A DNA stretch of 64,000 nt, taken from Leptospirales bacterium. Its GTDB lineage: Bacteria; Spirochaetota; Leptospiria; Leptospirales; Leptospiraceae. The notes beneath the pieces are model-generated. The model had not been told where the DNA came from, ran no database searches, and saw only the letters and a program-made list of their open reading frames with translations. Positions 4,527 through 8,687 of the stretch are shown here, in pieces; position 1 is the first letter of the stretch; each line of letters starts with the position of its first letter. Position numbers and translations under genes: made by a program. The stretch spans positions 1 through 64,000 of the forward strand of contig JAAFIR010000020.1 in NCBI GenBank assembly GCA_013297885.1, given 5' to 3'.

Positions 4527-4898
4527 TTACATTTTTTTTGATGCAATTATTTCTTTACAAGCTGGACTTAATTCAGCTTCTTTTTCTTTTAAACATTTGA
4601 TGATTCTACCCTCACCTGGTTTAACATCTTTACAAAATTTCTTTCTATCATCTTTACATTTTGTACTATTTTCTTTAACTTTATTTGTAATCGTTTCAAA
4701 ATGAGTTTTACAAGCTGGAGATAATTCAGCTTCTTTTTCTTTTAAACATTTAATGATTCTTCCCTCACCTGGTTTAATATCTTTACAATATTTTTCTTTA
4801 TCAACTTTACAAGGTTTTTCAGAACTTTTTTCCTCAACTACATCCTGAGCAAATAATCCACTTAAAATAAATAAACTAAATAAAATGATTTTTTTCAT
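4527..4898 (-). CDS. Secreted cysteine-rich tandem-repeat protein (123 aa)
   Basis: A signal peptide (MKKIILFSLFILSGLFAQ) is followed by two nearly identical units of about 50 residues. Each carries CKxDxxKxCKD, then KPGEGRIIKCLKEKEAELSP and ACK. The DNA shows the same 150-bp periodicity (4561 and 4711 begin matching stretches), so the duplication is recent or kept uniform. The four-Cys pattern resembles the Golgi-apparatus Cys-rich (GLG1) repeat family seen in bacterial secreted proteins. It is probably periplasmic or surface-exposed and stabilised by disulfides. Function unknown. Confidence 0.85.
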   Translation of the reverse strand: MKKIILFSLFILSGLFAQDVVEEKSSEKPCKVDKEKYCKDIKPGEGRIIKCLKEKEAELSPACKTHFETITNKVKENSTKCKDDRKKFCKDVKPGEGRIIKCLKEKEAELSPACKEIIASKKM

Positions 4899-5009: not shown

Positions 5010-6665
5010 ATGTTTAATCTAAATAAATCTTTTAAACTATTTTTCCTTTTTGGAAAAAAGATAAAACTAGATGAAAAGAAAATTATCTACTTTTTATTAT
5101 TCTCAGGAGTATTATTTTTAATTTTTTCAGTTTTATTCAAACAGTTTGAATTAACTATAACAAGTTTAATTATTATAACTATAAATTTTCTTGGTATAAT
5201 TTTTTATAAAAGCAAAGTTTTTCCATATTTTATTTTTTATTCTTTATTATCATTAAACTTCATATTGAGTATTGTATTTGAAAAAAATCTAGGTTTTTAT
5301 ATTAGTTACTTCGGTGTGGCTTTGTTAAATGTAATACTTTTCCCATTAACAAAGTTAAAACTAATTAGAATTAATTTTTTTTTAATATTTTTTTGTATAA
5401 TATTATTTATAGTTTATGACTATAAATCTTTTCCGAAAATTAAAATAGCTGAAGAATATAGTAAATATATTTTTAGATTTAATTACTATTTTATTTTTTT
5501 TCTAATTTCTATTTCAGTTTCAATTATAACTTTTAAACTCCAAAAACTGGAATCAAAAATATTATACTATAATCAGATCATTGTTGAAATTTTTGAAAAT
5601 CAGATTCATTCATTTTTTCAAATTGATACTAATTTTTTAATTGAAAGATACAACCAAAAAGCTTATGATTTATTTTATTTATTATTTCAAAAAAAAGTTC
5701 AAGTCGGCAAAAACCTTCTTGATTATTTAATCAATTCTGATGAAAGAAATTCAATTCTAAAACTACTTCTTACTGTTCTTGAGAATGGGAATAAAGTTAT
5801 AATAGAAAAAGAATTTTTTTTTGAAAAATTATCAGTTTGGTTTTTAATAATTATTGATAAAATTCAATTAGATTCGGAAGTACCAAAATTAATTATTTGT
5901 TTTAAGAATATAACTAATTTAAAAGAAACAGAAATTAAAGAACAATTATTAAAAAATAGAGCTGAGATTAATCATTTGAAGAAAAATCAATTTATTAAAA
6001 TTGTTACAACAAAAATGCTAAAACCACTTCAAAAAATTTTAGAAATTAAAGATTCAATAAATAAAACAAATTTTCGAAATTTAGATTTGAATTATTTACA
6101 TTTAATTGAATTTTCAACTAATAATTTAATACATTTTATGAACGATTTAAAATCAAATTCTGAGTTTTTAAGTGAAAAAATTTTTTTAAAAAATAAAAAA
6201 GATAATTTAGTAGAAAGAGTGAAATTATTATTTGAATCTTTTAGGATTGCTCATAATCTTAAAGAAATTAACTATGTTTTAAATATTGATAAAAACATTC
6301 CTAAAGAACTTTATTTTGATACAAAACTTATCTCACAAATTTTGTACAATTTATTGAGTAATGCATATAAATTTACAGAAAAAGGAAAAATTGAACTAAA
6401 TTTAAAACTATTTACAGAATCACCAAAAGTAAAAATTTTATTTGAAGTGGTTGATACTGGAATTGGTATTAAAAAAGAAAATTCAAACTTGATTTTTAGA
6501 AATTTTTCTCAGGAAAATGATGAAGTTTATAAAAAATTTGGTGGAACAGGTTTAGGACTTGGAATAGTTAAAAGAATTTTAAATAATTATAATTCAGAAA
6601 TTTTTTTGGAATCAAAATTAAAAATAGGAAGTAAGTTTAGTTTTATTTTGGAGCTAGAAAAATAA
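5010..6665 (+). CDS. Membrane sensor histidine kinase lacking the phospho-acceptor His
   Basis: Six transmembrane segments (residues about 25-176) are followed by a PAS-like region (about 185-300), a DHp-like helical region (about 310-380) and an ATPase domain (about 430-551). The ATPase motifs are all present: N box YNLLSNAYKFTEKG (446-459), G1 VDTGIGI (481-487) and G2 GGTGLGLGI (511-519). The H box is not: where kinases have SHEIRTPL this protein reads TTKMLKPL (333-340), so the His position is Thr334. It should bind ATP but cannot autophosphorylate normally. Its stop codon touches the start of the next gene, whose product has the His but lacks the ATPase motifs. The two probably act as a pair. 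Confidence 0.88.
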   Translation: MFNLNKSFKLFFLFGKKIKLDEKKIIYFLLFSGVLFLIFSVLFKQFELTITSLIIITINFLGIIFYKSKVFPYFIFYSLLSLNFILSIVFEKNLGFYISYFGVALLNVILFPLTKLKLIRINFFLIFFCIILFIVYDYKSFPKIKIAEEYSKYIFRFNYYFIFFLISISVSIITFKLQKLESKILYYNQIIVEIFENQIHSFFQIDTNFLIERYNQKAYDLFYLLFQKKVQVGKNLLDYLINSDERNSILKLLLTVLENGNKVIIEKEFFFEKLSVWFLIIIDKIQLDSEVPKLIICFKNITNLKETEIKEQLLKNRAEINHLKKNQFIKIVTTKMLKPLQKILEIKDSINKTNFRNLDLNYLHLIEFSTNNLIHFMNDLKSNSEFLSEKIFLKNKKDNLVERVKLLFESFRIAHNLKEINYVLNIDKNIPKELYFDTKLISQILYNLLSNAYKFTEKGKIELNLKLFTESPKVKILFEVVDTGIGIKKENSNLIFRNFSQENDEVYKKFGGTGLGLGIVKRILNNYNSEIFLESKLKIGSKFSFILELEK

Positions 6666-8687
6666 TTGGAAAGTTTTGAAAAAACAATCACTTCTGAGTT
6701 ACAAAAAAATTTTTGGAACCAGACAAAATCAAATTATTTAAGTAAGTTTACAAAATTTTTCTTTTTTTTAACTCTTATAAATATTACTTTAGATTTTTAC
6801 CAAGGGTTAATAGAATTCAAAATAGAAAAAATTTTTATAATTTTAGTTGATATTTCACTAATCATAACCTTTGCATTAACAATAGTTTTACTTAGAAAAA
6901 AAAAAATAGTCCTCGGTATTAGTATATTTTTTATTTTATCTACTATCTTAAGCATACTAGTAAGTCAAATTGGTGGATTTGGTTCTGGTCATCATTTGTA
7001 TCTCTTGGTTGTTATTTTTGCTATAATTTTTTTTATATACAATAATGACAGAAAGAGAACTTTATTAATTTTTTTATTTTTCTTTGGTATAATTATTTTT
7101 AGTGAATTTAATAATTTTTCATTATTAATGAAAAAAGAAGATTTGAATGAAGAGTCAATTCAATTATTTTTTACAGAATCTATTATATTTACCATTCTAA
7201 GTCTAATTGTTTCATTAGAAGTTTTACTCAGGGTTTATTCTAAATTGATTCTAATATTTGATCATTCAAATAAAAATTTAATTAAAATTATGGAGTCAAG
7301 TGATTCAAATATTTTTTTGTTTGATTCAAACTTCGAACTTAAGCTTAAAACAGAAAATAAGAAGTTAGAGAATTTTATAACAGATTTAGAAATGAATTCA
7401 ATTAAAGAAAAGTTATCTTATATAAAGAAAGGAGATATTTTTAAAAATGAATTTTTATCAGAAAATAATAAATGGTTCAAATCATATTTTAAGTCTATTA
7501 AACTTCTAGATAATACCAATTTACTTTTATATATAAAAGAAGATATTACTGAATTAAAAAAAAAATTAGAAATAATTTCTAATAAAAAAAATTTTCTAAA
7601 TGATTCAACTGCAGGTCAAATTTTATTTTTGTCTAATTTTAGTCATGAAATACGAACTCCATTAAACTCAATTTCAGGTCTTAGTGAAATTTTGTTAGAT
7701 AAAGTGGACGATGAAAATAAATTAAAACTTATAGAATTAAAAAAAAGTGCCATTTATTTAGCAGATTTTATAAATGAAATTTTGTTTTTATCAAAGATTG
7801 AAAATGAAAAATTTTCATTAAATGAAAACCGTCTTGAAATCATCAATTTGATTGAATTGTTAGAAATAAAATTATCTGAAAGTAATTTATCCAAAAATAT
7901 TGAAATTCTCCAAGGAAATTTAGAAACAAGAATTGTTGATGCTGATGATTCAGCTTTAATTCTTTTTTTAAAAAACTTCATAGAACTTTTATTTGAATCA
8001 GTTGGTACTAAATTAAATATTAAAATTAATTCTATTGATTTTTCAAATCGTTCTCAGCTAATTTGTGAATTTAATTTTAAAACTAATGAAACTATAAATA
8101 TTCTAAATGAAATTTTTTTTGAAGAAGAGTTAATATCACAAAGAGATGTATCTTTATATTCCATAAAAATTGAAATTTTAAAAAACTTAATTAAATTCTT
8201 CAATATAAGATTTGAATTTTTAGATTTTTGTGATGATAAAAAAATAAAATTAATTTTTAGCTTTCCAAAACTTCATAAAACTATTTATAATGAAATTAAA
8301 ATTTCTGATCCAAAAATTATTATTATTGATGATTATTTAGTAAATCGAATTATTATTGAAGAAATTTTATCAAAACTAAATTTAAACTTTCAAAGTTTTT
8401 CCAATGCTAATGAGTTTATTTCATCAATGGATAAAATTAATTTTGATTGTATATTTTTAGATTTGTTAATGCCCGATATAAATGGATTTGAGGCTGCTAA
8501 AATTATTAATTCAAAATTAAAGAATAACAAAATCCCAATTTTAGCTATAACTGCTTTAAACGAAATTGATTTGGAAACGAAATTAAATGAAGTAGGAATT
8601 ATTGATCTAATACAAAAACCATTCGATGTTAAGGAAGTAAAACTAAAACTATCAAAATATTTAGGCTTAAATTTTGAAAATAACTAG
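6666..8687 (+). CDS. Hybrid kinase with intact H box and receiver but degenerate ATPase domain
   Basis: The start is a TTG directly after the preceding stop; GGAG lies about 12 nt upstream and no ATG occurs nearby, so translation is probably coupled. Five or six membrane segments span residues about 28-195. A canonical H box, NFSHEIRTPLNSI, places the phospho-acceptor at His327. The ATPase region (about 425-535) has lost the N-box NLLxNA core, the DxGxG motif and the GTGLGL loop. The receiver (about 550-665) is intact: acidic pair D555/D556, phosphorylation site D599 in FLDLLMPD, T629 and K651. It would need phosphate from a partner ATPase domain, most simply the upstream protein. No DNA-binding domain is attached. 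Confidence 0.87.
   Translation: MESFEKTITSELQKNFWNQTKSNYLSKFTKFFFFLTLINITLDFYQGLIEFKIEKIFIILVDISLIITFALTIVLLRKKKIVLGISIFFILSTILSILVSQIGGFGSGHHLYLLVVIFAIIFFIYNNDRKRTLLIFLFFFGIIIFSEFNNFSLLMKKEDLNEESIQLFFTESIIFTILSLIVSLEVLLRVYSKLILIFDHSNKNLIKIMESSDSNIFLFDSNFELKLKTENKKLENFITDLEMNSIKEKLSYIKKGDIFKNEFLSENNKWFKSYFKSIKLLDNTNLLLYIKEDITELKKKLEIISNKKNFLNDSTAGQILFLSNFSHEIRTPLNSISGLSEILLDKVDDENKLKLIELKKSAIYLADFINEILFLSKIENEKFSLNENRLEIINLIELLEIKLSESNLSKNIEILQGNLETRIVDADDSALILFLKNFIELLFESVGTKLNIKINSIDFSNRSQLICEFNFKTNETINILNEIFFEEELISQRDVSLYSIKIEILKNLIKFFNIRFEFLDFCDDKKIKLIFSFPKLHKTIYNEIKISDPKIIIIDDYLVNRIIIEEILSKLNLNFQSFSNANEFISSMDKINFDCIFLDLLMPDINGFEAAKIINSKLKNNKIPILAITALNEIDLETKLNEVGIIDLIQKPFDVKEVKLKLSKYLGLNFENN

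Follow-up and report, generated by a model that had tools for sequence, protein, structure and literature searches.

Complementary losses in two adjacent membrane sensor kinase genes of a Leptospirales bacterium suggest a split HisKA-type kinase

We analyzed a 64,000-nucleotide stretch of DNA from a Leptospirales bacterium (contig JAAFIR010000020.1, positions 1 to 64,000; hereafter the window), in which two kinase-like genes lie in tandem on the forward strand and encode proteins of 551 aa (P1) and 673 aa (P2). The coordinates (5010-8687), reading frames and motifs given for both proteins in a preliminary description of this DNA were confirmed by sequence and by Pfam. The features of the locus are as follows.

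5010 to 6665, forward strand: P1, with a sensor (residues ~20-180), a PAS-like region (~195-300), a DHp-like hairpin with Thr334 and an intact CA domain, without a receiver
6009 to 6011, forward strand: codon of Thr334 of P1, at the H-box His position (from the sequence and alignment to histidine kinases)
6318 to 6659, forward strand: HATPase_c domain of P1, with the N box at 447, DTGIGI at 482 and GGTGLGL at 511
6650 to 6668, forward strand: P1/P2 junction, with GGAG at 6650-6653, the P1 stop codon TAA at 6663-6665 and the P2 start codon TTG at 6666-6668
6666 to 8687, forward strand: P2, with a membrane sensor, a PAS-like region, a HisKA/DHp domain with His327, a degenerate CA region and a receiver
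7623 to 7808, forward strand: HisKA domain of P2, with His327 and a phosphatase-type HExxT motif (HEIRT)
7842 to 8303, forward strand: degenerate CA region of P2 (~residues 393-546), with the N, G1 and G2 motifs gone and a CA-like order of strands and helices in the model
8316 to 8642, forward strand: receiver of P2 (residues 551-659), with D555, D599, T629 and K651

The N-termini of both proteins consist of hydrophobic multi-span segments, as expected of the multi-span membrane sensors first proposed for them. The genes do touch stop to start, TTG at 6666 following directly on the TAA at 6663-6665; they share one reading frame with this single TAA between them, which is consistent with coupled translation. 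P2 starts either at this TTG or at a rarer codon, and no other standard start is found ahead of its membrane region. The common frame, the lone TAA and the want of a standard P2 start other than the TTG right after the stop could also point to a single polypeptide, a fused double-sensor kinase arising by read-through of the in-frame TAA or disguised by a sequencing or assembly error, and the related pair of one congener (G003, see below) is likewise in one frame. We consider this highly improbable: a Shine-Dalgarno-like GGAG lies 12 nt upstream of the TTG, and in two further congeners (G001 and G002) each gene of the pair has its own start and a different frame from its neighbour, which makes separate proteins the usual arrangement. 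A frameshift artefact as the origin of the split was also ruled out, since the frames are intact. There is no BLAST-detectable similarity between P1 and P2, and no output gene lies next to them. On the reverse strand, positions 4527-4898 of the window encode a small secreted-looking protein with two near-identical 27-residue Cys-rich repeats (Pfam Cys_rich_FGFR).

P1 retains the ATPase half of a kinase. Its N box (NLLSNA at 447), DTGIGI and GGTGLGL motifs are kept and Thr334 stands in place of the acceptor His, just as the first reading had it; Pfam detects HATPase_c (E=1.2e-20) and, with the cut-off relaxed to E<=1, still no HisKA. Thr334 lies within FIKIVTTKMLKPL, at the point where other kinases read SHEIRTPL. 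A merely shifted H box was rejected, since the alignment shows no His close to Thr334. On an ATPase profile made from relatives, P1 reaches 153 bits, and its AlphaFold2 model (10-row alignment) shows a DHp hairpin together with a CA domain whose pLDDT is mostly 80-94. By its motifs, profile score and model, the ATPase of P1 is under visible constraint. An orthodox HisKA-type kinase combines an H-box His with HATPase_c, from which P1 departs at Thr334; its replaced acceptor and preserved CA fold are those of a DivL-like pseudokinase.

P2 retains the acceptor half. His327 lies in a perfect FSHEIRTPLN within a HisKA domain (Pfam E=2.7e-13), and the receiver (Pfam E=3.7e-20) has all of its catalytic residues. 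The reported loss of the ATPase motifs was borne out: HATPase_c has no Pfam match in P2 at E<=1, residues 384-548 give only noise against the relatives' ATPase profile, and neither hhalign nor hmmsearch recovers a CA domain. One apparent N-box match, spanning 18 columns only, was discarded as noise. The motif-less stretch nonetheless remains coding; its frame runs without a stop for 462 nt (154 codons) in the 28% GC window, which 0/20,000 base shuffles achieved, and its codon-position composition is of the coding type (GC1>GC2>GC3). An AlphaFold2 model of P2 (10-row alignment) shows a DHp hairpin followed by strands and helices in CA order, with pLDDT mostly 65-85 and dips near 50 at residues ~480-500, and Foldseek matches it to whole DHp-CA units, including that of RetS, at a TM-score of ~0.6 of target. 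Since P2 was aligned with true kinases, the alignment may have imposed part of this CA-like fold. A hybrid HisKA-type kinase would have HisKA, HATPase_c and receiver, and HATPase_c is absent from P2 by sequence. P2 resembles RetS in combining a degenerate HATPase without G boxes with a preserved DHp and receiver, with moderate confidence in the fold given its forced alignment.

Each protein is without exactly what the other has: the catalytic domain and the acceptor His are on different proteins, neither of which is complete, and neither alone answers to the definition of a histidine kinase. By anatomy, P1/P2 is a split kinase outside the CheA family. We lean towards the reading, held with restrained confidence, that P1 and P2 together form a split, membrane-bound, heteromeric HisKA-type kinase in which phosphate would pass from the ATPase of P1 to His327 and then D599 of P2. 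Trans-phosphorylation is the simplest way in which both parts stay useful. In such a complex, P1 would supply the sole ATP-binding catalytic domain and P2 the sole acceptor His and the receiver, with contact probably made between the DHp helix bundles and perhaps also between the related membrane sensors. The CA domain of P1 would phosphorylate His327, from which the phosphoryl group would move to D599 and onward to a phosphotransfer partner, and free P2, with its HExxT motif kept, could dephosphorylate its own receiver. If the DHp handedness were of the cis type, a P1:P2 dimer could not bring the CA domain of P1 to His327. The preliminary description had gone as far as an obligate heteromer that requires two sensed inputs. 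Its division of ATPase and acceptor is real, and a reversed split in G001 backs a heteromeric pair; the association of P1 with P2, each step of phosphotransfer and any AND logic of two signals are inferred, and it is to this inferred part that an obligate partnership and two inputs belong.

In the CheA class, naturally split kinases are on record. In Rhodobacter sphaeroides, neither CheA3 nor CheA4 autophosphorylates alone and phospho-CheA3 forms only when the two are mixed (PMC3591291), which upholds the precedent originally cited for a splitting of functions. In Synechocystis, the Hik36/Hik43 split is known from gene structure and two-hybrid data (PMC7656254). Like P1/P2, both systems place ATPase and acceptor His on separate proteins, and in both the acceptor protein may double as a phosphatase (PMC3591291, PMC7656254). 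They differ in belonging to the CheA class, in being soluble or bound to arrays, and in carrying the acceptor on an Hpt/P1 domain, whereas P1 and P2 are HisKA-class membrane sensors; Pfam finds none of the CheA domains (Hpt/P1, P3, CheW-like P5) in either protein, which sets them apart from the CheA3/CheA4 family. Unlike CheA3/CheA4, P1 and P2 both keep a DHp-like hairpin, and their split involves point loss and degeneration in whole kinases rather than the domain loss of CheA3/CheA4; G001, with its ATPase deleted, is the exception. For the HisKA class, EnvZ can be divided in vitro into HisKA and HATPase pieces with activity retained (PMC3591291). Split HisKA membrane sensors have been proposed from lists of orphan domains. 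In one such list, Amin et al. (2013) counted 1556 HisKA proteins without HATPase among 42,417 (~3.7%) and took an HE/DxxN/T motif as the sign of a bifunctional split kinase, with predicted switch-like responses (PMC3591291). P2 is a HisKA protein of this kind, without HATPase and with the motif, and its HEIRT fits their "bifunctional split kinase" (PMC3591291); that list assigned no partners, whereas the candidate partner of P2 adjoins it. In the open-access literature, we found no described natural HisKA-type membrane-sensor pair with complementary losses, nor any proposed split of this class for which a candidate partner was named.

Other degenerate kinases raise the possibility that P1 and P2 act apart. 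P2 would then be a RetS/ChpT-like, sensor-gated phosphotransfer or phosphatase node, and P1 a DivL-like regulator or the kinase of another protein's DHp; we regard this as possible but rather unlikely, and attach the same limited likelihood to its corollary that other kinases or receivers in the cell charge P2 or drain it. RetS, like P2, is a hybrid kinase of the membrane whose G boxes are degenerate, and the P2 model superposes on its kinase region (TM-score ~0.6 of target); with a HATPase that lacks G boxes, RetS acts by contact on another kinase, as a phosphate sink, as a phosphatase and by binding (PMC5992135). Its partner GacS has retained a His and does not need RetS to work, whereas the adjacent candidate partner of P2 has no His, and RetS/GacS is not a tandem complementary pair. 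ChpT and Spo0B also combine a DHp bearing the acceptor His with a degenerate CA, functionally so in ChpT (PMC9981736); these are soluble relays without sensor or receiver, whereas P2 is a membrane sensor that keeps its own receiver together with HExxT. The cell also offers other partners, with at least 50 other HisKA kinases in the host genome, and the G003 pair, which has no acceptor His, indicates that a non-kinase role may be possible for such pairs. On the side of P1, the acceptor site of DivL of Caulobacter is a Tyr. DivL is HisKA-type like P1, without an acceptor His; it acts through another hybrid kinase and functions with no need for acceptor residue or ATPase (PMC9491836). Here lies the difference, since the DivL partner CckA has its own ATPase and that of DivL is dispensable, whereas the ATPase of P1 is the only one of the pair. 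Separate action leaves unexplained both the full set of ATP motifs in P1, with which DivL-type regulators can dispense, and the exactly complementary parts in adjacent, coupled genes.

Relatives were sought in 61 and 100 genomes. An adjacent kinase pair with a sensor of the P1/P2 type was found in 3/3 other species of the genus examined (G001, G002 and G003), and none was detected outside the genus at the search sensitivity used. The congener pairs share one locus upstream of a lipoprotein gene, with an ATP-grasp gene alongside in G002 and G003; within each, gene 1 and gene 2 are tandem duplicates (32-39% identical, and 44-54% between genes of the same position), gene 1 usually being without a receiver and gene 2 having one. 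Pairs overlap or stand 0-9 nt apart, and all eight pair genes, those of the window included, are open, without frameshifts or stops. The congener genomes are fragmented (230-620 contigs), and single-base calls could in principle be wrong.

The G002 pair (L061) is intact, with SHEIRTPM and full ATPase motifs in both genes and a receiver only in gene 2. In G001 (L063), the split is the reverse of that in the window: gene 1 (L063:8706-10367) keeps SHEIRTPM, and a clean deletion of its ATPase joins HisKA straight to a receiver; gene 2 reads QEIRTPM (codon CAA) and keeps an ATPase and a receiver. The value of this reversed split is weakened because the G2 box of the remaining ATPase is damaged (GTTGLEL, with Gly replaced by Glu). 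In G003 (L062:1418-5335), gene 1 reads NEIRTPM (AAT) with a shortened G2 box, and gene 2 reads QEIRTPM (CAG) with a full ATPase and a receiver. With both His lost (Asn, Gln) and ATPase domains and receiver kept, this pair cannot alone be a split His kinase; it demonstrates that, with the acceptor gone, a pair can either persist or decay, and that a pair of this type need not contain one. The idea that the losses would be conserved as a pair among homologues thus receives a mixed answer; with congener pairs intact, reversed or His-less in both genes, conservation does not extend to the precise pattern of losses. What the reversed split does support, on comparison of the sequences, is that such pairs may tolerate complementary loss.

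The window pair sits at a different locus from the congener pairs. At the lipoprotein (LEA) locus of the host genome there is no kinase pair, and in G002 and G003 homologues of the window's downstream neighbours follow an FHA gene, without the pair. Against a congener sensor and PAS profile built with the window rows left out, P1 scores 59 bits over almost its full length and P2 37 bits; two single kinases of the host genome (C31, C49) score as high, and with a sensor-only profile the window pair is not separable from single kinases. P1 and P2 are 22-28% identical to their only relatives, and a tree leaves them unplaced with respect to congener gene 1 and gene 2, with branch lengths of 3-4 changes per site. 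Searching genome contigs with P1 returned generic kinases only and no close relatives, and searching viral contigs with P2 returned no match. Judged by these profiles, the window pair is homologous to the congener pairs in sensor type, and it is either the congener pair, relocated and evolving fast, or one that formed independently. P1 and P2 may have undergone fast, relaxed evolution, given their very long branches and the absence of BLAST-detectable mutual similarity. It is conceivable, and we put it forward tentatively as somewhat unlikely, that across the genus tandem sensor kinases became obligate heteromers from an intact pair, with ATPase and acceptor roles fixed in opposite directions by species. 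If so, the congener pairs would form a natural series from homodimeric kinase to obligate two-sensor heterodimer. With its complementary genes side by side, and with both intact and reverse-split relatives in the genus, P1/P2 offers a practical system for testing forced heterodimerization of sensor kinases, AND-type logic of inputs and the ultrasensitivity predicted for split bifunctional kinases.

The host genome (G000; 4.6 Mb, 99.99% complete, roughly 4,300 genes) shows how unusual the pair is. The acceptor His is kept in 53/53 detected HisKA domains, and in 51/53 cases an ATPase follows within 600 nt. Of the two that depart from this, one is P2, an orphan acceptor directly downstream of the His-less ATPase protein P1; the other is a HisKA-receiver protein without ATPase (AHELRAPL; L114, C18:64000-69000, HisKA at 66069-66224). 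Among the ATPase proteins without a detected HisKA (eight read), one more is clearly His-less, a membrane protein with an ATPase and a Ser at the acceptor position within LVNLSSEFKFYMDN (L176, G000:C28:16900-18725), and it adjoins no orphan acceptor that we saw. A rough calculation, with the CA-less proteins counted as two and the His-less ones as about three in roughly 4,300 genes, puts the chance of such an adjacency at the order of 0.3%, an estimate that takes no account of tandem duplication as a source.

These counts bear on the alternative that P1/P2 is a duplicated, redundant pair of kinases in relaxed decay, in which the remaining motifs would be leftovers and neither gene would signal. 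The very long branches, the different losses in each congener, including both His in G003, and an AT-rich genome that eases compositional drift are what decay would produce. We nevertheless think it unlikely, since the frames of P1 and P2 are intact, the ATPase motifs of P1 and the receiver residues of P2 are all kept, even the motif-less CA region of P2 is open and coding-type in composition, and frameshifts or stops occur in 0/8 pair genes. Nor are the other kinases of this genome decaying; with His always kept and 51/53 HisKA domains having their own ATPase, the losses in P1 and P2 are not part of a general decay. Elsewhere in the same genome, a HATPase fragment with an in-frame stop (L115/L171, G000:C52:51068-51409) immediately precedes an intact hybrid kinase and looks like a broken duplicate.
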